Part shown: positions 26,319 through 37,248 of the stretch, in pieces
Position numbering within the stretch: the first letter of the stretch is position 1
Layout of the letters: every line of letters starts with the position of its first letter
From: Paracoccaceae bacterium
GTDB taxonomy: Bacteria > Pseudomonadota > Alphaproteobacteria > Rhodobacterales > Rhodobacteraceae
Direction: 5' to 3'
Assembly: GCA_003567315.1 (NCBI GenBank)
Contig: PWZT01000026.1
Span: forward strand, 1 to 64,000
Length of the DNA: 64,000 nucleotides
Notes under the pieces: model-generated
What the model was told of the DNA's origin: nothing
Databases searched by the model: none
The model's input: only the letters and a program-made list of their open reading frames with translations
Program-made: the position numbers and the translations under genes

Positions 26319-27137
26319 TTATGCGGATTTCGCGAGGCGGTCGAAGGCTTGCAGGCGCTCCAGCAGGGCGGGCATCTGCGCAAGCGGCACCATGTTCGGC
26401 CCGTCGGAAGGGGCGTTGTCGGGGTCGTCATGCGTCTCGATGAAGAGCCCGGCACAGCCCACGGCCAGCGCCGCGCGCGCCAGCGGTGCCACGAATTCGC
26501 GCTGCCCGCCCGAGCTTGTGCCTTGCCCGCCGGGTTGCTGCACCGAATGGGTGGCGTCAAAGATCACCGGGTAGCCCGTCGCGGCCATTGTCGGCAAGGC
26601 GCGGAAATCCGAGACCAGCGTGTTGTAGCCAAAGGATGTGCCGCGCTCGCAGAGCATGACCCGTGTATTCCCGGTCGAGGCGACTTTGGCCGCGACATTT
26701 TCCATGTCCCAAGGTGCCAGAAACTGGCCCTTCTTGATATTGATGACCCGCCCGGTGGCCCCGGCAGCGAGCAGAAGATCGGTCTGGCGGCTGAGAAAGG
26801 CGGGGATTTGCAGCACATCGCACGCCTCGGCGGCCGGAGCGCAATGGCCGGGCTCATGCACGTCCGTGAGCACCGGGCAGCCGAACTCGGAGCGGATCTG
26901 CGTGAGTATCTCCAGCCCGCGCTCCATCCCCAGCCCGCGCTGGCCGGAAAGGCTGGAGCGGTTGGCCTTGTCATAGCTGGCCTTGAAGATGAAGGGGATC
27001 GCAAGCCGCGCGCAAGCATCCGCAAGCGCCCCTGCGATCAGGCGCGCATGATCGAGCGATTCCATCTGGCAGGGGCCGGAGATCAGCGCGAAGGGCGTGT
27101 CATTGCCGATCTCGATCTCGCCAATACGCACGCTCAT
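26319..27137 (-). CDS. kdsA: 3-deoxy-8-phosphooctulonate synthase (Kdo-8-P synthase)
   Basis: A 272-residue enzyme condensing arabinose 5-phosphate with PEP to make Kdo 8-phosphate. It shows ALISGPCQMESLDHARLIA, IFKASYDKANRSSLSGQRG, LTDVHEPGHCAPAAE, DVLQIPAFLSRQTDLL and NIKKGQFLAPWDMEN in the right order, and the CERGTSFGYNTLVSD block. ATG 27137 overlaps the kdsB stop by four bases. It is third in a Kdo operon; products feed lipopolysaccharide or capsule. Confidence 0.95.
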   Translation of the reverse strand: MSVRIGEIEIGNDTPFALISGPCQMESLDHARLIAGALADACARLAIPFIFKASYDKANRSSLSGQRGLGMERGLEILTQIRSEFGCPVLTDVHEPGHCAPAAEACDVLQIPAFLSRQTDLLLAAGATGRVINIKKGQFLAPWDMENVAAKVASTGNTRVMLCERGTSFGYNTLVSDFRALPTMAATGYPVIFDATHSVQQPGGQGTSSGGQREFVAPLARAALAVGCAGLFIETHDDPDNAPSDGPNMVPLAQMPALLERLQAFDRLAKSA

Positions 27138-27931
27138 TCCCGGCCCTCTCGTTTGAGGACGGCCTCGATCCGGGGCACGTCCTCGGGGTTGTTCAGTTCC
27201 CAGAATTCGCGGCCCTGCGCCTCGACCTCGACGCAGGTGACCGGCAGGCCGTTATAGAGGAAGCGCAACTGCTCCAGCCCTTCGAGATTTTCCAGCTCGC
27301 AAGCCCCGGCGGCCATGTAGCGCGAAAGCGCCTCGGGCGTGTAGGCATAGACGCCGACATGGTGGAAGGCGGGCACCTGTTCGAGCGGGCCGTAGATGCG
27401 CCCGGTATAGGGCAGCACTTCCTTGGAGAAATAGAGCGCCGTGCCATCGGCGGCCATCACGGCGGTGGTGCCGCCCACGCGCCCGGCCTTGCGGTCCTCG
27501 ACAAAGCGCGCATGAGTCTCGGGCGTCAGGCGCAGCACCGGGGTCGCGACCTCGGCCCCGCGCTCGATGCCCGCGATCAGCGCGGTGACGAACCATGCGG
27601 GCGTGAGCGGCGCATCGCCTTGCAGATTCACCACCACGCGCGGGGTGATCTCCAGCCGTGCGAGCGCATCGGCGCAGCGTTCGGTGCCATTGGCGCAGTC
27701 GATATCGGTCATCACCACCTGCGCGCCGAACGCGGCTGCGGCATCAGCTATACGCGCGTCATCGGTGGCGACATAGACCGCATCCACCCCCTCGACCGCG
27801 CAGGCCGCGCGCCAGCTTCGCTCGATCAGGCTTTTCGTCCGGCCCGTCGCGCCCTCGAGCCCGACAAGCGGCTTGCCCGGATAGCGGCTGGAGGCATAGC
27901 GCGCCGGGATGAGGATGATCTTCTCGGCCAT
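27134..27931 (-). CDS. kdsB: 3-deoxy-manno-octulosonate cytidylyltransferase
   Basis: A 265-residue CMP-Kdo synthetase activating Kdo with CTP. It begins IILIPARYASSRYPGKPL, the nucleotide-binding loop of the family, then VVNLQGDAPLTPAWFV with the metal-binding Asp. It ends GREFWELNNPEDVPRIEAVL, the normal C-terminus. The start codon directly abuts the kdsD stop without overlap, and its own stop overlaps kdsA. Its clustering with kdsD and kdsA recalls kpsF-kpsU of capsule loci. Confidence 0.94.
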   Translation of the reverse strand: MAEKIILIPARYASSRYPGKPLVGLEGATGRTKSLIERSWRAACAVEGVDAVYVATDDARIADAAAAFGAQVVMTDIDCANGTERCADALARLEITPRVVVNLQGDAPLTPAWFVTALIAGIERGAEVATPVLRLTPETHARFVEDRKAGRVGGTTAVMAADGTALYFSKEVLPYTGRIYGPLEQVPAFHHVGVYAYTPEALSRYMAAGACELENLEGLEQLRFLYNGLPVTCVEVEAQGREFWELNNPEDVPRIEAVLKREGRE

Positions 27932-28894
27932 TCACACCACTCCTGCGCGCAGGCAGTCATGCAGCCGGATCAGCCCCTGCACGCGCCGCGCCTCATCGAT
28001 CACGCAGAGCGCGTTGACCTTGTTGCCATTCATCACCATCACCGCTTCCGAGACCAGCGCATCCGGGGTGATCGTCTTGGGGTTGCGCGTGGCCACATCG
28101 CCCGCGCGGCGGGTCATCAGCCCGTCCATGTTGCGCCGCAGATCGCCATCGGTGATGACCCCGCGCAGCACGCCGCCCTCGGTCACGATCGCCACGCCAT
28201 AGCCCGTGCCGGTCATGCGCATCAGCACATCGGGCATCGGCGCATCCTCGCCCACCAGCGGCAGCGCGTCGCCGCGATACATCAACTCGCCCACGCGCAT
28301 GAATTGCGCGCCGAGCTTGCCGCCGGGGTGGAACATGTGAAACCCCGCCGGATCGAAGCCCTTCTGGCGCATCACCGCCACCGCCAGCGCATCACCAAGG
28401 GCAAGGCTGAGCGTGGTGGAGGTGGTGGGCGCCATGCCGATGGCGCAGGCTTCGGGGGCATCGGGCAGGATGAGCGCGATGTCGGATTTCTGCGCGAGCG
28501 TGCTTTCGGGGTTGCCGGTGATCGAGATCAGGCGGATCCCGAAGCGCCGCGTATAGGAGACCAGATCGCTCAACTCGTTCGTTTCGCCCGATTTCGACAG
28601 CAGCAGGCAGGTATCCGCGCCCACGATCATGCCCATATCGCCATGGCTCGCCTCGGCTGCATGGACGAAATAGGCGGGTGTGCCAGTGGAGGCGAAAGTG
28701 GCCGCGATCTTGCGCCCGACATGGCCCGATTTCCCGATCCCGGCCACAACAAGCCGCCCCTTGGTCGCGAGGATCATCTCCACCGCCTGCGCGAAAGGGG
28801 CACCGAGCCCTGCGGCCATGCGGTAGAGCGCATTGGCCTCGGCCTCCAGCACGCCCTTGCCGGCGGCGATCGCGTCCTCGTTGAGATCGGTCAT
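27932..28894 (-). CDS. kdsD: Arabinose-5-phosphate isomerase (KpsF/GutQ family)
   Basis: A 320-residue isomerase converting ribulose 5-phosphate to arabinose 5-phosphate, the first step to Kdo. An N-terminal SIS domain (residues about 35-175) has VVAGIGKSGHVGRKIAATFA and LLLSKSGETNEL. Two CBS domains follow from about residue 200 (RGVITDGDLRRNMDGL; VMNGNKVNALCVIDEARR). I start at ATG 28894 with AAGG upstream, which gives the usual family length; the open frame runs 27 codons further. It is first in the Kdo operon, 90 bases downstream of the BASS-family gene. Confidence 0.93.
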   Translation of the reverse strand: MTDLNEDAIAAGKGVLEAEANALYRMAAGLGAPFAQAVEMILATKGRLVVAGIGKSGHVGRKIAATFASTGTPAYFVHAAEASHGDMGMIVGADTCLLLSKSGETNELSDLVSYTRRFGIRLISITGNPESTLAQKSDIALILPDAPEACAIGMAPTTSTTLSLALGDALAVAVMRQKGFDPAGFHMFHPGGKLGAQFMRVGELMYRGDALPLVGEDAPMPDVLMRMTGTGYGVAIVTEGGVLRGVITDGDLRRNMDGLMTRRAGDVATRNPKTITPDALVSEAVMVMNGNKVNALCVIDEARRVQGLIRLHDCLRAGVV

Positions 28895-28984
28895 TTTGCC
28901 TTGCACGGTCACGCGCGTCACTCGCTCCTCTCCAGCGCAAGTCAGATGCGGGCAGCTATCGCAGGCGCGGGCCAAAAGTCAACA

Positions 28985-30305: not shown

Positions 30306-30434
30306 TCCCCCTTTGCGGTGGCCCATGCCCTCCAGGCAATGCGCACCCATACGGGCGCAGGGTCTGCCCGATGTCAGGCTGCGATCCGCTGGCCAGTGCG
30401 GGCACGCTTGCCGAATCTGTGCAGCACGCGTATC

Positions 30435-30617
30435 GAGGGAGGGCTCTGGTCCGAACGCCTTCGGCATGAGGGAACGCGGTGCGCGGCTTGATCGCCGCAA
30501 TTCCGCGACTGCCCCCGCAACTGTAGGCGGCGAGCGATGTCGGCATATGCCACTGTGACGCGATGTCATGGGAAGGCCCGGCAAAGCTGTGACCCGCGAG
30601 TCAGGAGACCTGCCAGA
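30435..30617 (+). ncRNA. Cobalamin riboswitch
   Basis: The leader has the conserved parts in order: GAGGGAACGCGGTG, then AATTCCGCGACTGCCCCCGC followed by AACTGTA, GCCACTGTGACG, ATGGGAAGGC, and the B12 box CGCGAGTCAGGAGACCTGCC at the end. This is the AdoCbl-class aptamer arrangement. It lies about 145 bases before exbB, so it should lower exbB-exbD-exbD-tonB expression when cobalamin is plentiful. An ACGGTT-TG-AACCGT hairpin at about 30653-30669 might be part of the switching platform. Confidence 0.92.
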
Positions 30618-30762
30618 GTGTTCACCCTATCCCGGCGCGGGTGGCGCTGCGGGTAACGGTTTGAACCGTAGCGGTGACATCCTTCGCCGTCTGCGGTGCG
30701 CGATTGCACCTGCCAGACATTTCGACAACAGGGCCAGACGGCCCGAGCAGGGGTGTTGCGGG

Positions 30763-31392
30763 ATGATCGACATGGCAGCGCTCATGGCGTTTCTGGAGCG
30801 TGGCGGGCCTGCGCTGTGGGTGATCGCGGGGCTCTCGGTGTTCACATTGGCGCTGATCCTGTGGAAATTCTGGGATCTCGCCCGGCTGGGCGCATGGTCG
30901 CGCGCACCCTCCGAGCAGGCTGTCGCGGAGTGGCAATCGGGGGCCGCGCGCGAGGCATTGGCGCGGCTCGCAGTGCGAAAGGGTCTGCGCGCGCGGGTCA
31001 GCCGCCGGGCGATGCAGACGCGGCTTGCGCCCGAATATGCCGAGGCGGCTGCGCGCGAGGAGACCAGCCGCGTGGGCAAGCGCGCACTGATGGAGGCGCG
31101 GCGGGGTCTGCGCGCGCTCGAACTTATCGCGACGATCGCCCCGCTGATCGGGCTGTTGGGCACGGTTCTGGGCATGATCGAGGCGTTTCAGGCGCTGCAG
31201 GCGGCGGGCAACCGCGCGGACCCTGCGGCGCTGGCGGGCGGCATCTGGCAGGCGCTGCTGACCACGGCTGCGGGCATGGCCGTGGCGATCCCGGCTGCGA
31301 TGGCGCTGAGCTGGTTCGAGAGCATCTGCGACCGCGTGCAGGTCGATCTCGAAGATCTCGCCACGCGGATATTTACCAGCGGGGCCGCGTGA
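30763..31392 (+). CDS. exbB: ExbB/TolQ-family proton channel subunit
   Basis: A 209-residue inner-membrane protein of the MotA/TolQ/ExbB family. Helix 1 is at about residues 15-35 (GPALWVIAGLSVFTLALIL). The channel-forming helices 2 and 3 are in the C-terminal half: LIATIAPLIGLLGTVLGMIEAF and GIWQALLTTAAGMAVAIPAAMA. It uses proton flow to drive TonB. I start at ATG 30763 because the longer open frame upstream runs through the riboswitch. TGATG overlap with the first exbD indicates coupling. Cobalamin-controlled by the leader. Confidence 0.92.
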   Translation: MIDMAALMAFLERGGPALWVIAGLSVFTLALILWKFWDLARLGAWSRAPSEQAVAEWQSGAAREALARLAVRKGLRARVSRRAMQTRLAPEYAEAAAREETSRVGKRALMEARRGLRALELIATIAPLIGLLGTVLGMIEAFQALQAAGNRADPAALAGGIWQALLTTAAGMAVAIPAAMALSWFESICDRVQVDLEDLATRIFTSGAA

Positions 31393-31775
31393 TGTTTCGC
31401 TTTTCCGCCCCGCGCCCCGCGCGTCGCCCCAGCCTGACACCGATGATCGATGTGGTGTTTCTGCTTCTGGTGTTCTTCATGCTGGCGGCGCGGTTCGGGC
31501 AGGATATGGGGCTCGCACTCGCGCCCGGTCAGGGCGGGGGCGCGGGCTATGAGGGGCCGCCGCGGCTGGTGGAGTTCGCGGGCGATGCGCTCTGGCTCAA
31601 CGGGGTCGAGACCGCGCCCGAGGATCTGCCCGAGGCCGTGGCGGCGCTTATGCTCACGCCCGAGGCGCTGGTCGTGCTGCGCCCGCGCGAGGGCGCGAAC
31701 GTGCAGGATCTGACGCGGGTCACAGAGCTGTTGCAGGGGGCAGGGCTGTCGCGCCTTGTGGTGCTGGCCCCATGA
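31392..31775 (+). CDS. exbD: ExbD-family protein, first copy (with the essential Asp)
   Basis: A 127-residue protein with a short cytoplasmic start, a single membrane helix (about residues 15-36) and a periplasmic domain. The helix reads LTPMIDVVFLLLVFFMLAA; Asp20 matches Asp25 of E. coli ExbD, the residue that carries protons. The periplasmic part (LVEFAGDALWLNG) fits the ExbD/TolR fold. It overlaps exbB and the second exbD by one and four bases. Together with ExbB it should form the motor of the TonB complex. Confidence 0.9.
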   Translation: MFRFSAPRPARRPSLTPMIDVVFLLLVFFMLAARFGQDMGLALAPGQGGGAGYEGPPRLVEFAGDALWLNGVETAPEDLPEAVAALMLTPEALVVLRPREGANVQDLTRVTELLQGAGLSRLVVLAP

Positions 31776-32164
31776 GCGCGCTCGATTTCACCCCGCCCCC
31801 CCGCAAGCCTGCGCGCGAGAGCGTGGTGCCGATGATCAATGTGGTGTTCCTGCTTCTGATCTTCTTTCTGATGAGCGCGCAGATCGCCCCGCCGGACCCG
31901 GTCGAGGTCGCCCCGCCTGTGGTACGCGAGGCCGAGGCGCTGCCCGAGGGCGCGCGGATGCTGTGGCTGGGCCGCGATGGGGTGCTGCATTTCGACGGGC
32001 TGACGGGCGCGGAGGCGCTGGAGGCGCTGGGCGAGGCTCCGGGGCCAGTGAGTTTGCGCACGGATGCGGGGCTGGAGGCGGCTGAATTCGCCCGTGTATT
32101 GCAGGCGCTGGGCGAGGTCGGGGTGGAGGCAGTGACGCTGGTGGCCGTGATGGGGGAGCCATGA
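31772..32164 (+). CDS. ExbD-family protein, second copy (Asp replaced by Asn)
   Basis: A 130-residue paralogue of the preceding ExbD with the same layout. The membrane helix reads VVPMINVVFLLLIFFLMSA: Asn23 (codon AAT, 31838-31840) stands where the proton-carrying Asp is found in active ExbD/TolR/MotB proteins. No other acidic residue is in the helix. The periplasmic domain is kept (RMLWLGRDGVLHFDGL). It may form a mixed dimer with the first ExbD, or have lost motor function and act as a structural partner. It overlaps tonB by four bases. Confidence 0.85.
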   Translation: MSALDFTPPPRKPARESVVPMINVVFLLLIFFLMSAQIAPPDPVEVAPPVVREAEALPEGARMLWLGRDGVLHFDGLTGAEALEALGEAPGPVSLRTDAGLEAAEFARVLQALGEVGVEAVTLVAVMGEP

Positions 32165-32955
32165 GGCCCGGGCTGGAGTTTCTGGGCTTCGCCTCGCTCG
32201 CGGCGGTGGCGCATCTGGCGGTCTTCGCGGCCACGCTGCCTGACGGCATGGAAGCGGGCGGCGCTGGCGGAGCGCAGGAGGTGACAGTCGCCGCGCCGCT
32301 GGGCGGGGCGGATGCCGCGCTTGCCGAGATGGTCGCGCGCTGGGAGGCCCCGCCTGCCATATCCGAGCCAGAAGCCCCCGCCACGACAGCCGCGCCCGCC
32401 GCGACCGCGCCCGCGCTGCCTTTGCCCGAGCCGGAGGAGGCCCCTGCACTGCAGGCCGCGCAGCTTCCCGAGATGCGCGCGCCCGAGGCAAGTGCCGAGG
32501 CGTCGCGCCCGCCGCCGCCGGTCTTCGATATGCCCGAGACGCGCGAGACCCCGCGCCCGCGCGCGCGGCCCGAACCGCGGCAGGCCGCACCGGCCGCCCC
32601 GCCTGCGCAGCGCGCGGCCGGGCAGGGGCAAGCGCGGCAGAGCGGGCAGGGGCAGGCGCGCGAGACCAGCGGTGCGGCGCCGAGTGCCAGCGCGCTGGCG
32701 CAATGGGGGGGCGGCATTCGCGCGGCGATCCAGCGCCAGCAGCGCAGCCCCGGGGCGCGTGCACGCGGCACAGTGCATCTGCGTTTGCAGGTCAATGCGG
32801 ATGGGCGGCTGGCCGGGGTGAGCGTGACGCAAGGCTCGGGCAATGCGCAGCTTGATCGCGCGGCGGTGCAGGCCGTGCAGCGCGCACGCCTGCCGCGCGC
32901 GCCGTCGGGCGTGTCAGGGACGCATCAGTTCAATCTGCCGCTCAGCTATCGTTAG
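32161..32955 (+). CDS. tonB: TonB family energy transducer
   Basis: A 264-residue protein with an N-terminal membrane anchor (about residues 7-25), a long Pro/Ala/Glu-rich spacer (residues about 55-170) that crosses the periplasm, and a C-terminal TonB domain of about 85 residues: GTVHLRLQVNADGRLAGVSV and LDRAAVQAVQRARLP, ending LPLSYR. It delivers ExbB-ExbD energy to outer-membrane receptors. It is last in the riboswitch-controlled operon, so the likely cargo is cobalamin, although no BtuB-type receptor gene is in the window. Confidence 0.9.
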   Translation: MRPGLEFLGFASLAAVAHLAVFAATLPDGMEAGGAGGAQEVTVAAPLGGADAALAEMVARWEAPPAISEPEAPATTAAPAATAPALPLPEPEEAPALQAAQLPEMRAPEASAEASRPPPPVFDMPETRETPRPRARPEPRQAAPAAPPAQRAAGQGQARQSGQGQARETSGAAPSASALAQWGGGIRAAIQRQQRSPGARARGTVHLRLQVNADGRLAGVSVTQGSGNAQLDRAAVQAVQRARLPRAPSGVSGTHQFNLPLSYR

Positions 32956-33755: not shown

Positions 33756-34967
33756 TCATGCGACTGCATGTGCAATCGCGCATTGCTTCCAGAGCGCGGT
33801 GAGGGCGGAGACCAGATGGTCGATATCGGCATCCGAATGCAGCGGGCCGGGGGTGATGCGCAGCCGCTCGGTGCCCTTGGGCACGGTCGGGTAGTTGATG
33901 GGCTGCACATAGATGCCCCAGTCATTCATCAGGATGTCCGAGATCATCCGGCATTTGACCGGATCGCCGATCATCACCGGGATGATATGGCTCTCATTGG
34001 GTATATGCGGGATGCCCTGCGCATCGAGCTTGGCGCGCAGCCGTGCCACGCGGTCGCGCTGGGCCATGCGCTCGGTCTGCGAGGTTTTCAGATGCCGGAT
34101 GGACGTGGTCGCCGCCGCCGCGATGGCCGGGGGCAGGGCGGTGGTGAAGATGAAGCCGGAGGCGAAGGAGCGGATGAAATCGCATAGCGCATGGCTGCCG
34201 GTGATGTAGCCGCCCATCACGCCATACGCCTTGCCCAGCGTGCCCTCGATCAGCGAGATCCGGTCCGCGAGCCCGCGCTCTTCCGAGATGCCGCCGCCGC
34301 GCGGGCCATACATGCCGACCGCGTGGACCTCGTCGAGATAGGTGAGCGCGCCATGCGCCTCGGCCACCTCGACGATCTCGCGCATTGGGCAGATATCGCC
34401 ATCCATGGAATAGACCGATTCGAACGCCACGATCTTGGGGCGGTCGCCCACGGCCTTGAGCTTGCGGTCGAGATCGCGCCAGTCATTGTGCTTCCACAGC
34501 ACCTTGTCGGCGCGGCTGTGGCGGATGCCCTCGATCATGCTCGCGTGGTTCTTTTCGTCCGAGAGGATCACGGCGTTGGGGATTTTCGCGCCCAACGTCG
34601 ACAGCGCGGCCCAGTTCGACACATAGCCGGAGGTGAACAGAAGTGCTGCATCCTTGCCATGCAGATCGGCGAGTTCCTCTTCGAGGATGCGGTGGAGATG
34701 GTTGTTGCCCGAGATGTTGCGCGTCCCGCCCGCGCCAGTGCCGCAGGCGGTCACTGCGCGCACCATGCTATCCACGACAGTCTCGTGATGCCCCATGCCG
34801 AGATAGTCATTCGAGCACCAGACAGTGACCTCCTGCACGCCGGGGCCGTTGAAATGCTTGACCTTGGGGAAGCTGCCGCATTGACGTTCGACCTCGGCGA
34901 AGATGCGGTAGTTGCCTTCGCTTTTCAGCGTGTCGAGCGCGGTTTGGAAATGGGTTTCAAAGTCCAT
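33756..34967 (-). CDS. hemA: 5-aminolevulinate synthase
   Basis: A 403-residue PLP enzyme joining glycine and succinyl-CoA, the first step of tetrapyrrole synthesis in alphaproteobacteria. It shows [55 protein letters not shown], and the PLP lysine in [20 protein letters not shown] 34967 with GAGGGGATCCCG upstream is preferred over a start six codons earlier. It sits inside the photosynthesis operon after puhE, supplying precursor for bacteriochlorophyll. Confidence 0.96.
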
Positions 34968-34981
34968 CGGGATCCCCTCGG

Positions 34982-35782
34982 TCATGTTTTTGATTTCGTG
35001 TTTGTGGGCGCCGGGATCATCCAGCGCCAGAGTTTGTCATCGCGCACGCGCCAGACCATGAACCAGTGCTCCAGCAGCGCGAGGGCCGTGAGCATGGACA
35101 GGAGCGTGAAGCCGATGATTGCGCCCTGATCGGCGGCCTGATGTGCGCGCCAGAGCCGTTCGAGAAAGCAGCCCACGGCAAGCGCCAGCAGCGTGACCGA
35201 GAGCGGGAAGAAGCCACTGACCGGGCCTTGCCGGAAGTAGCTGGAGAGATGCGACAGCGGGCGCGGCAGAAAATCGGTATTGATGCGCGGCACGCCGAGA
35301 AAGAGGTTGAGCTTGGCCGAGATGCGGGCGGCGAACAGCACAAGGAAGGTCCAGAGCGCGAAGGCGTTGTCGGCGCCGAGCGAGGCGAGCGCCAGCACGA
35401 TCAGCATGGCCGCGAGCAGCACCTCGTGGAAGGCCACAGTGCGGAAAGCGGCCCAGAACCGTGCGACCGGGGCGAGCCCGGCAGGGCAGGGTCGGGTATT
35501 GGGGCCGGTGATGACACCGGAGAGGAAGGCGAGTTCCACCCAGGCCCAGAGCGCGAGTGCTGCGAGGAAGGCGAACCACACGCCCTGCGCGCTGGCATCG
35601 CCCAGCGTGGCATGCACCCCGAGCGCGCCTGCCGCCAGTAGCGGCAGCGACAGGATCACGGACCACGCATGTTGATCACGCCCGCCGCGATCTGCGGCAT
35701 GGACGCGCCAGAGCAGGATGCCCGTGGCAAACCACCACAGAAACAGCGCAGCAAGAGCGGCTATCCAGGGGGTTTCAAACAT
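34982..35782 (-). CDS. puhE: Photosynthetic complex assembly protein PuhE
   Basis: A 266-residue membrane protein with about seven hydrophobic helices, matching PuhE (DUF3623), which is found only in photosynthesis gene clusters and helps reaction centre and light-harvesting assembly. Characteristic blocks are [19 protein letters not shown] at the start, [16 protein letters not shown], and [20 protein letters not shown] with [16 protein letters not shown]. It lies between acsF and hemA, 14 bases before the hemA start. Its exact molecular action is unknown. Confidence 0.9.
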
Positions 35783-35836
35783 GCATCGGGCTCCTGTCTG
35801 GCGTGCCGGGCGGGCCGCGTGGCCCGCCCGCGCGGC

Positions 35837-36937
35837 TTAGTAGGCGGGCTCCAGCCGCACCGAGGCGGGGGGCGTGTTCTTCTTGACCGGCAGCAGATAG
35901 AGGCGGGCAAAGCCTGCGCCTGCGCGGGCCATGCCGCCCCAGCGCTTCAGCGTGCCGCCCACACCGCCCTGTTTGGTGCCGGCTTCGACATCCTTGTAGG
36001 CGGCCTCGATCCTGCGCAGCGTGGGCAGCCAGGCCGGGTGGTCGATGTCCAGCTCCAGAGGGAAGACCTGCCGCGCGATTTCGGAGGTCTTGCGGAAGAC
36101 TTCCTGATCATACCAGTCGATATCCACGCCAAGCGCCTTGTGGAACTCAGGCCGCGCATGGTCGCGCACATACATCGTGGCATAGACAGCCGTCAGGAAG
36201 AAGCGGATCCAGAGCTTGTTGACGAAGCTCTCCGTCAGCTTGGGGTCAGTGCGCATCAGCAGCGCGAAGGCTTCGCCATGGCTGAACTCGTCATTGCACC
36301 ATTCCTTGAACCACTTGAAGATCGGGTGGAAGCGCTTGTCGGGGTTCGCCTCGAGATGGCGGTAGATGGTGATATAGCGCGCATAGCCGATCTTCTCGCT
36401 GAGATACGTCGCGTAGTAGATGAATTTGGGCCGGAAATAGGTGTATTTCTTGGCCTTGGTCAGGAAGCCCAGATTCACCGCCACGCCCGCTTCGCGCAGC
36501 GCGTCATTGATGAAACCGGCATGGCGCGCCTCGTCGCGGGCCATATAGTTGAACAACTCGCAGATGTCGGGGTTGTTGCCGCGCCGCTTCATCTCCTTGT
36601 AGAGCACGCAGCCCGAGAATTCGGCGGTGCAGGAGGAAACCAGAAAGTCGATCAATTCGCGCTTCAGGGCGGGGTCCATGCCCTCCCAGTCGATATGATC
36701 CCACTCTTCGTTCTTCTTGAAATGGCCCTTGTTGGGGTCCGACTTCATCTGTGCGATCAGCTTGTCCCATTCCTCGCGCACCGGGGTCACGTCGATGCGG
36801 TCAAGCTCGTCGAAATCGGTGGTGTAGAAACGCGGGTTCAGCAGCGTGGATTCCTGCGCCATGGCATCGGTGTCGAAGCGATCGCCGATTTCTGCGCGCA
36901 ATTCGTCATGGGCGGTTGCGGGGCTTTGCATGTTCAT
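35837..36937 (-). CDS. acsF: Mg-protoporphyrin IX monomethyl ester cyclase, aerobic (AcsF)
   Basis: A 366-residue di-iron oxygenase forming ring E of bacteriochlorophyll with O2. Iron ligands are visible in LVSSCTAEFSGCVLYKEM, ARDEARHAGFINDAL and DEFSHGEAFALLMRTDP. NMQSPATAHDELR marks the N-terminus; ATG 36937 is preceded by AAGGAGG and overlaps the upstream small gene by four bases. Together with BchE elsewhere in the window it gives the cell cyclases for both oxic and anoxic conditions. Confidence 0.96.
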   Translation of the reverse strand: MNMQSPATAHDELRAEIGDRFDTDAMAQESTLLNPRFYTTDFDELDRIDVTPVREEWDKLIAQMKSDPNKGHFKKNEEWDHIDWEGMDPALKRELIDFLVSSCTAEFSGCVLYKEMKRRGNNPDICELFNYMARDEARHAGFINDALREAGVAVNLGFLTKAKKYTYFRPKFIYYATYLSEKIGYARYITIYRHLEANPDKRFHPIFKWFKEWCNDEFSHGEAFALLMRTDPKLTESFVNKLWIRFFLTAVYATMYVRDHARPEFHKALGVDIDWYDQEVFRKTSEIARQVFPLELDIDHPAWLPTLRRIEAAYKDVEAGTKQGGVGGTLKRWGGMARAGAGFARLYLLPVKKNTPPASVRLEPAY

Positions 36938-37248
36938 GCCGCGGCCTCCTTGTTGAGTGACATCTCCTCGGAGAAGGAAAATTCGCACAGCTCGATGAAT
37001 TCGAAATCACCGGTGAGCTTGGTCCAGACGCGCTCCAGCGCATTGGCGCGGGTGATGGTGGCGACGCGATCCTCCGAGATCACCTCGCCCCATGCCGCGA
37101 GCACGGGCGGGCCTTGCACCTGCACCTCGTCGCCCGGATGGATGACCGAGCCGTCATTGAAACGCACATGCGCGTGCAGAGCCTCGAAACGGTGCGACAC
37201 CTCAACTGTGCAGGGCACCTGTTCGACCTTTCTTGAGAAGAGTGACAT
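36934..37248 (-). CDS. Conserved photosynthesis-cluster protein of unknown function
   Basis: A 104-residue soluble protein without signal peptide or membrane span. The middle (VRFNDGSVIHPGDEVQVQGPP) looks like a small beta-rich fold, and the C-terminal half is helical and acidic (LTGDFEFIELCEFSFSEEM). A similar small gene is found between puhC and acsF in other purple bacteria, but no activity is known to me. The stop overlaps the acsF start (ATGA), so an AcsF-related role, such as subunit or assembly factor, is plausible. Confidence 0.8.
   Translation of the reverse strand: MSLFSRKVEQVPCTVEVSHRFEALHAHVRFNDGSVIHPGDEVQVQGPPVLAAWGEVISEDRVATITRANALERVWTKLTGDFEFIELCEFSFSEEMSLNKEAAA

Follow-up and report, generated by a model that had tools for sequence, protein, structure and literature searches.

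Positions 1 to 64,000 of contig PWZT01000026.1 (assembly GCA_003567315.1, Paracoccaceae bacterium, forward strand) make up the window analysed here, and within these 64,000 nucleotides we examined an operon for a predicted Ton motor that carries two adjacent exbD genes, the second of which has asparagine where ExbD proteins have their proton-carrying aspartate. The four genes exbB, exbD1, exbD2 and tonB run head to tail on the + strand from 30763 to 32955, behind a riboswitch:

30430..30631, + strand: cobalamin riboswitch aptamer (RF00174), leader of the operon; cmscan 124.6 bits against a gathering score of 31.5
30763..31392, + strand: exbB, proton-channel subunit of the MotA/TolQ/ExbB type, 209 amino acids; Pfam PF01618 (MotA_ExbB), 99.5 bits; start codon picked by eye
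31392..31775, + strand: exbD1, Asp-type ExbD (Asp20), 127 amino acids; open reading frame (ORF) list and PF02472, 52.4 bits
31772..32164, + strand: exbD2, Asn-type ExbD (Asn23, codon AAT), 130 amino acids; ORF list and PF02472, 56.9 bits
32161..32955, + strand: tonB, 264 amino acids; PF03544 (TonB_C), 48.9 bits; NCBIfam TIGR01352, 59.7 bits, above its cut-off

A first-pass annotation, made from the letters and an ORF list, had drawn attention to this tandem and to the residues Asp20 of ExbD1 and Asn23 of ExbD2. Its coordinates and residue numbers agree with the ORF list, the sequence and the Pfam matches. The placement of both exbD genes between exbB and tonB is likewise borne out, by Pfam matches for the flanking genes and by ATGA overlaps at both the exbD1/exbD2 and the exbD2/tonB junctions.

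Both ExbD proteins exceed the Pfam ExbD cut-off of 25.4 bits, and they share only 30% identity. In ExbD1 (LTPMIDVVFLLLVFF) Asp20 lies within LTPMID20VVFLLLVFF, and in ExbD2 (VVPMINVVFLLLIFF) Asn23 lies within VVPMIN23VVFLLLIFF. A single-sequence phmmer comparison, which is weak (E 0.071), sets Asn23 opposite Asp25 of the ExbD chain of PDB 6tyi; a profile built from 16 Asn-type copies matches the same chain at E 3.8e-13. The ring threonines Thr134 and Thr168 are present in the ExbB of the window. Against the NCBIfam models, ExbB scores best with tolQ (73 bits, cut-off 221) and reaches 42 bits with the exbB models (cut-offs 135 and 206), ExbD1 reaches 20 bits with the exbD equivalog (cut-off 153), and ExbD2 matches none of the exbB/exbD equivalogs. 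A PDB search with ExbB likewise ranks TolQ ahead of ExbB. Since the exbB and exbD equivalog cut-offs are not reached, the operon proteins are, by these scores, a divergent subfamily; we call the motor Ton on the strength of the TonB gene and the context.

Occurrence and pairing of the two copies

To define how widely this arrangement occurs we relied on several samples from Pseudomonadota, the phylum that the survey covers. With ExbD2 as the query, matches turned up in 33 genomes among 60 relatives. Residue-neutral searches with mixed alignments covered 299 genomes of the phylum and 385 of the class, and these, together with PF02472 run on 39 picked genomes, brought in 60 further regions. A profile scan over all loci then defined a pair as two copies on the same strand with starts 250–700 nt apart. 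An Asn-type profile run separately against named genomes returned at least 594 pattern matches, of which 543 were confirmed and 80 kept (L034–L113), mostly from Rhodobacteraceae or Roseobacter-group genera by title, with some other or broader labels. Because this last scan selects Asn, its 70 further distinct Asp/Asn pairs were excluded from the residue counts; together with the 99 non-selected ones they bring the total to 169. Residue statistics refer to 100 non-selected pairs of the subfamily after removal of near-duplicates. The non-selected counts are samples among the matches listed rather than a census.

In the loci from the search of 60 relatives, tandem pairs had Asp in the first copy and Asn in the second wherever the residue was read. 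The non-selected distinct pairs comprised 99 Asp/Asn, 10 Asp/Asp and one Asp/Ser, and neither Asn/Asp nor Asn/Asn occurred among the 111 non-selected entries. The one entry left over, "N-", was dismissed as an artefact, a fragment of the second copy of L159. Asp/Asn pairs came from 91 genomes in 31 families, Asp/Asp pairs from 11 genomes in 8 families and the Asp/Ser pair from a single genome. The Asp/Asn arrangement reaches beyond Rhodobacterales, and four genomes from three families (G308, G320, G339 and G396) carry it outside the class altogether. Other ExbD subfamilies account for eight of the ten Asp/Asp pairs (L144, L145, L146/L147, L148, L149, L211, L213 and L218). Within the subfamily, all 100 first copies have Asp, and the second copies have Asn in 97 cases, Asp in two and Ser in one. 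The first-pass annotation had made its case for a conserved asymmetric motor depend on orthologous second copies not usually keeping Asp and on the Asn not being a sequencing error. Asn proved to be the rule, and sequencing error or a local mutation is ruled out, for it recurs in 99 distinct pairs, always in the second copy, across so many genomes and families.

Some genomes hold two Asp/Asn operons: G044 (L019, L162), G618 (L184, L214) and G149 (L189, L208). In the genus of the window's organism we also observed a second, diverged type of Asp/Asn operon with LIDVIFLLLLFFM followed by ALINIVFLMLIFF, or sequences near these (L020, L022–L026 and L028–L032); on a genus-mate contig (G003:C204) ExbD2 has 68% identity. 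A plasmid search with ExbD2 returned 11 records, all from Leisingera and all below 60% identity, in which the residue at the site was not read. One record titled Nocardioides marinus (L062) contains an exbD operon of the Roseobacter Asp/Asn type, and that assembly is probably contaminated or mislabelled. An apparent natural fusion of ExbD1 to ExbD2 (L187, 1030–1911) was set aside, as a neighbouring frame with an ExbD1-like end points to a frameshift, probably an assembly error.

The two copies travel together and with the rest of the operon. Among the loci examined, four Asn-type ExbDs are unpaired, and each of them starts no more than 405 nt from the end of its contig; pairing is found in every uncut locus, and there is no true orphan among these loci. 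Upstream, exbB lies within 600 nt in 164 of the 165 Asp/Asn pairs that have at least 750 nt of flank (of 169); a tonB gene follows at no more than 1300 nt in 136 of the 150 pairs whose downstream flank reaches that far (of 169). When the exbD2 start is taken as the start codon in frame that lies closest to the end of exbD1, 47 of 98 pairs show an overlap of exactly 4 nt, and in 97 of 98 the two genes are no more than 30 nt apart. Such abutting genes fit a 1:1 output of the two proteins.

Descent of the Asn copies and selection on the codon

We built a tree of 252 ExbD domains from which the Asp/Asn column had been removed; nine of its Asp/Asn pairs derive from the Asn-selected scan. One split contains all 107 Asn copies along with the three exceptional second copies. 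The first copies are less tidy, their own split taking in 100 of 106. A reduced IQ-TREE run (179 sequences, 70 of them Asn) again unites the Asn copies in this split, L215 being the single first copy that strays among them. The exceptional second copies are the following:

L155, 2555: Asp; nested among Asn copies
L150, 2512: Asp; nested among Asn copies
L210, 2449: Ser; nested among Asn copies

Their nested position suggests that the Asp and Ser states are later changes rather than the ancestral state. Altogether the trees lend moderate support to a single origin of the Asn copies.

Evidence on selection comes from the codon itself. Among 98 pairs the Asn is encoded by AAC in 49 and by AAT in 49, and parsimony requires at least 24 silent changes between the two. 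Only three second copies carry another residue, and we therefore read the Asn as being under purifying selection. A single transition would turn it into Asp, a residue present in only two of the 100 second copies. Among the columns of the second copy, Asn ranks third in conservation, level with Phe+9 (0.97; positions are counted from the Asp/Asn site).

These data bear on two further views of the second copy. In the first, the second Asp became dispensable after the duplication and drifted. A non-functional second site would account for the loss of Asp, and three second copies do deviate from Asn. However, those three are nested among Asn copies, the residue is among the best conserved of the protein, and silent changes far outnumber replacements, so that we regard relaxed constraint as very improbable. 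In the second view, ExbD2 serves as a brake or governor: D/D, D/N and N/N axles would coexist, those containing Asn being slow or closed, and their mixture would tune activity and proton leak. The abutting genes could set the ratio. An Asn axle would mimic the protonated state, as MotB D22N is taken to do (PMC9389320), and E. coli ExbD(D25N) is described as an inactive mutant (PMC11658791). Yet a brake would waste half of the product in every lineage, and any non-acidic residue would serve, whereas Asn is found in 97 of 100 second copies, one transition away from Asp. We consider the brake unlikely, if less so than drift.

A proposed axle with a single proton site

The two copies also differ around the proton site in a manner that appears complementary. 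All 33 control ExbD and TolR proteins of other subfamilies have Thr at position -4 and Asp at the site, and of the 18 with enough N-terminus 16 carry an acidic residue between -9 and -6. First copies retain the Thr (93 of 100) and the Asp (100 of 100), and only 5 of 92 have the acidic residue. Second copies show the reverse, with an acidic residue in 84 of 95, Thr at -4 in 1 of 100 and Asp in 2 of 100. The features of a canonical ExbD are thus divided over two proteins, as if one dimer needed both halves. The hydrophobic positions Ile-1, Phe+3, Phe+8 and Phe+9 are retained in both copies; among 100 second copies the counts are Ile-1 99, Leu+4 99, Phe+9 97, Phe+8 96 and Phe+3 95. In the 169 ExbB proteins of Asp/Asn operons the ring threonines are invariant wherever the row is ungapped (Thr134: 164 of 164; Thr168: 165 of 165). 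Such a pattern would be expected of two ExbDs that share an axle.

We also observed that position -7 from the Asn (Glu16 in the window), near the cytoplasmic side, is Glu or Asp in 79 of 98 second copies. This residue might have a part in proton exit or in assembly.

On this basis we propose that ExbD1 and ExbD2 form an obligate heterodimeric axle within an ExbB pentamer that drives TonB, a 5:1:1 complex with one proton site, and we hold this to be the probable arrangement, if well short of certain. A fuller version we put forward more tentatively, as slightly less likely than not: this ExbB5-ExbD1-ExbD2 complex would be a half-sited rotary motor that spends 5 protons on a turn and not 10, would have persisted since an ancient duplication in Pseudomonadota and would, as far as the genome search shows, be the organism's sole Ton motor.

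The chief rival to the heterodimer is a homodimer model: ExbD1 alone would form the axle of an ordinary 5:2 motor, with Asp on both sides. ExbD2 would then be a paralogue with a structural or regulatory task, either away from the pore or within a pool of resting complexes; it might gate the channel, for instance, or hold on to TonB or to peptidoglycan. ExbD1 does retain the Thr-Pro-x-Ile-Asp motif and the hydrophobic face of a working helix, 30% identity between the copies permits separate roles, and D25N is inactive in E. coli (PMC11658791). It is harder to reconcile with a transmembrane helix in ExbD2 that is nearly as conserved as that of ExbD1, which would be odd outside the pore, with the pairing of abutting genes in every uncut locus, and with the lack of the acidic N-terminal residue in nearly all first copies, a residue that most canonical ExbDs possess. 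We judge the homodimer model to be distinctly the less probable account, although it is a serious one. Taken together, conservation, codon selection, obligate pairing and the feature split make an asymmetric heterodimer more likely than a second copy that is regulatory or only loosely retained. The same four lines strengthen the asymmetric motor that the first-pass annotation had raised as a possibility; its heterodimer and single proton path, like the five protons per turn and the substrate, are inferred.

Several observations weigh against the heterodimer and the history proposed for it. The sequence data from which the 5:1:1 complex is proposed are also compatible with an ExbD1 homodimer and ExbD2 elsewhere. 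The feature split is a correlation. If the E. coli mutant is a guide (PMC11658791), the Asn subunit could be dead weight. The same-subfamily exceptions (Asp in the second copies of L141/L155 and L150, Ser in L210) indicate that Asn can be dispensed with, and tonB was undetected in 14 of the 150 pairs with room for it downstream. As to descent, support for the Asn split is moderate (SH 0.886 in the larger tree, UFBoot 76 in IQ-TREE), two stray Asp first copies (L157 and L215) lie inside it in the larger tree, and the Fitch count for the residue over the whole tree is six changes.

How could an axle with one Asp work? We envision one ExbD1 (Asp20) and one ExbD2 (Asn23) within the ExbB pentamer, in which Asp20 alone would take up and release protons and Asn23 would occupy the second, symmetry-related site, resembling a permanently protonated Asp. 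Rotation gated by one site would then consume five protons per turn, in steps of 72 degrees, instead of ten in steps of 36 degrees, and the torque would be about half that of a two-site motor. In one published variant of the rotary model, rotation occurs only with both sites neutral (PMC9389320). If that holds, Asn would always satisfy one of the two conditions and Asp would gate every step. A strict swap model, from [H -] to [- H], would be unable to run with an Asp/Asn axle. In an alternative cycle the axle would rock rather than act as a two-site turnstile.

Such an axle would matter for current thinking on 5:2 motors. In models of the flagellar stator and of the Ton and Tol motors, the two proton sites are taken to be equivalent, each proton to drive a 36-degree step and a full turn to need 10 protons. 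The 36-degree step is hypothesised in rotary models (PMC12215075). A review arrives at 10 ions per turn (5 x 2), makes torque proportional to the number of ions and expects 10-fold symmetry for all 5:2 motors (PMC9389320). In structures of Ton and Tol motors, the two Asp residues lie in unlike surroundings, one at the ring Thr and the other facing the cytoplasmic cavity (PMC12905483). If our proposal is correct, a natural single-site axle breaks the two-site alternation of these models. Should the Asp/Asn axle turn, strict two-site swapping would be unnecessary; should it rock, TonB would need only force and not full rotation. In either case it would offer two helices that can be told apart. 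The question is directly testable: cultured marine lineages of the Roseobacter group include relatives, and a heme-transporter mutant of one such lineage has been published together with growth tests (PMC5225302).

Related systems and role in the organism

Tandem exbD genes are known already. In the open-access literature we found no description of Asn-type ExbD copies or of a conserved Asp/Asn pair, most subscription papers lying outside the search. The operon resembles the ExbB5-ExbD2-TonB motor of E. coli and Serratia marcescens in its ExbB-, ExbD- and TonB-family genes, its ring Thr and the position of the Asp in ExbD1. Unlike that motor, it has two unlike ExbD genes with Asn at the proton site of the second, and its ExbD2 lacks the Thr before the Pro while keeping the acidic residue near the cytoplasmic end. 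Its ExbB is no closer to curated ExbB models than to TolQ models.

Asp/Asp tandems likewise combine one exbB with two adjacent exbD genes. The control loci L144–L148, of the TPLVDVM or TPLIDVM type, have Asp in both copies, in contrast to the PMID-then-PMIN pair described here; the type in L146–L148 presumably resembles that of Xanthomonas. In Sphingobium SYK-6, which we compared by description, Asp-25 is reported as conserved in ExbD1, ExbD2 and TolR, and disruption of either exbD was unsuccessful (PMC8599685). The Myxococcus gliding motor AglRQS also has one A and two B subunit genes, and whether its B subunits form a heterodimer or homodimers is given as an open question (PMC9389320). AglQ and AglS are both predicted to carry Asp (PMC9389320), whereas here the second B subunit has Asn; AglRQS is linked to gliding, whereas the operon described here lies beside TonB and, in two loci viewed, ABC transport genes. 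TolQ-like motors with paired vWA transpore-helix proteins similarly set unlike B genes beside one A gene; these B proteins occur without tolR or exbD genes, and their aspartate pair, one per monomer, is reported as conserved (PMC12204202). In the heme (hmu) locus of the Roseobacter Ruegeria sp. TM1040, exbB, exbD1, a "duplicate of the exbD1 gene (exbD1a)" and tonB stand beside heme transport genes (PMC5225302). By that description it is probably the same type of operon, and the available text of the paper leaves an Asp/Asn difference in exbD1a unmentioned.

What might the motor do in the organism at hand? The genome is 2.84 Mb in 102 contigs and 90% complete. PF02472 has three matches in it: exbD1, exbD2 and a gene on contig C45. 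The last stands between TolQ-like and TolA-like genes, after a YbgC-like thioesterase gene (names assigned by eye), and because of this gene order we take its product to be TolR. The PF02472 search found no Asp/Asp ExbD in this genome, about 10% of which may be missing. The Asp/Asn motor thus appears, from gene content, to be the organism's only Ton motor.

A single TonB-dependent receptor was located (PF00593; L231, 1138–5674, contig C29). Its best NCBIfam match is the vitamin B12 receptor model, at 243.7 bits and under the cut-off of 599.7, which makes it BtuB-like. The gene is preceded by a cobalamin riboswitch of its own. Behind it come genes for a periplasmic binding protein with a weak match to BtuF, for a permease whose best match, BtuC, stays below the cut-off, and for an ATPase identified by eye. 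Through its riboswitch the motor operon stands under cobalamin control as well, and on these grounds the Asp/Asn motor probably drives cobalamin uptake through the BtuB-like receptor. The riboswitch is not upheld as a general feature of such operons, as none was found in 17 operon loci from relatives, many of which end near exbB. In two relatives the operon lies near other transport genes: L044 has one for a heme ABC ATPase (311 bits for NF010068, cut-off 261), and L089 has siderophore-type ABC genes (scores below cut-offs).

Two further gene groups flank the operon in the window, both on the - strand. The photosynthesis genes hemA (5-aminolevulinate synthase), puhE and acsF adjoin it at 33756–36988, and because of them the organism is likely an anoxygenic phototroph. 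On the other side, at 26319–28975, lies a row of Kdo pathway genes: kdsA, kdsB and one for an isomerase of the KpsF/KdsD type.

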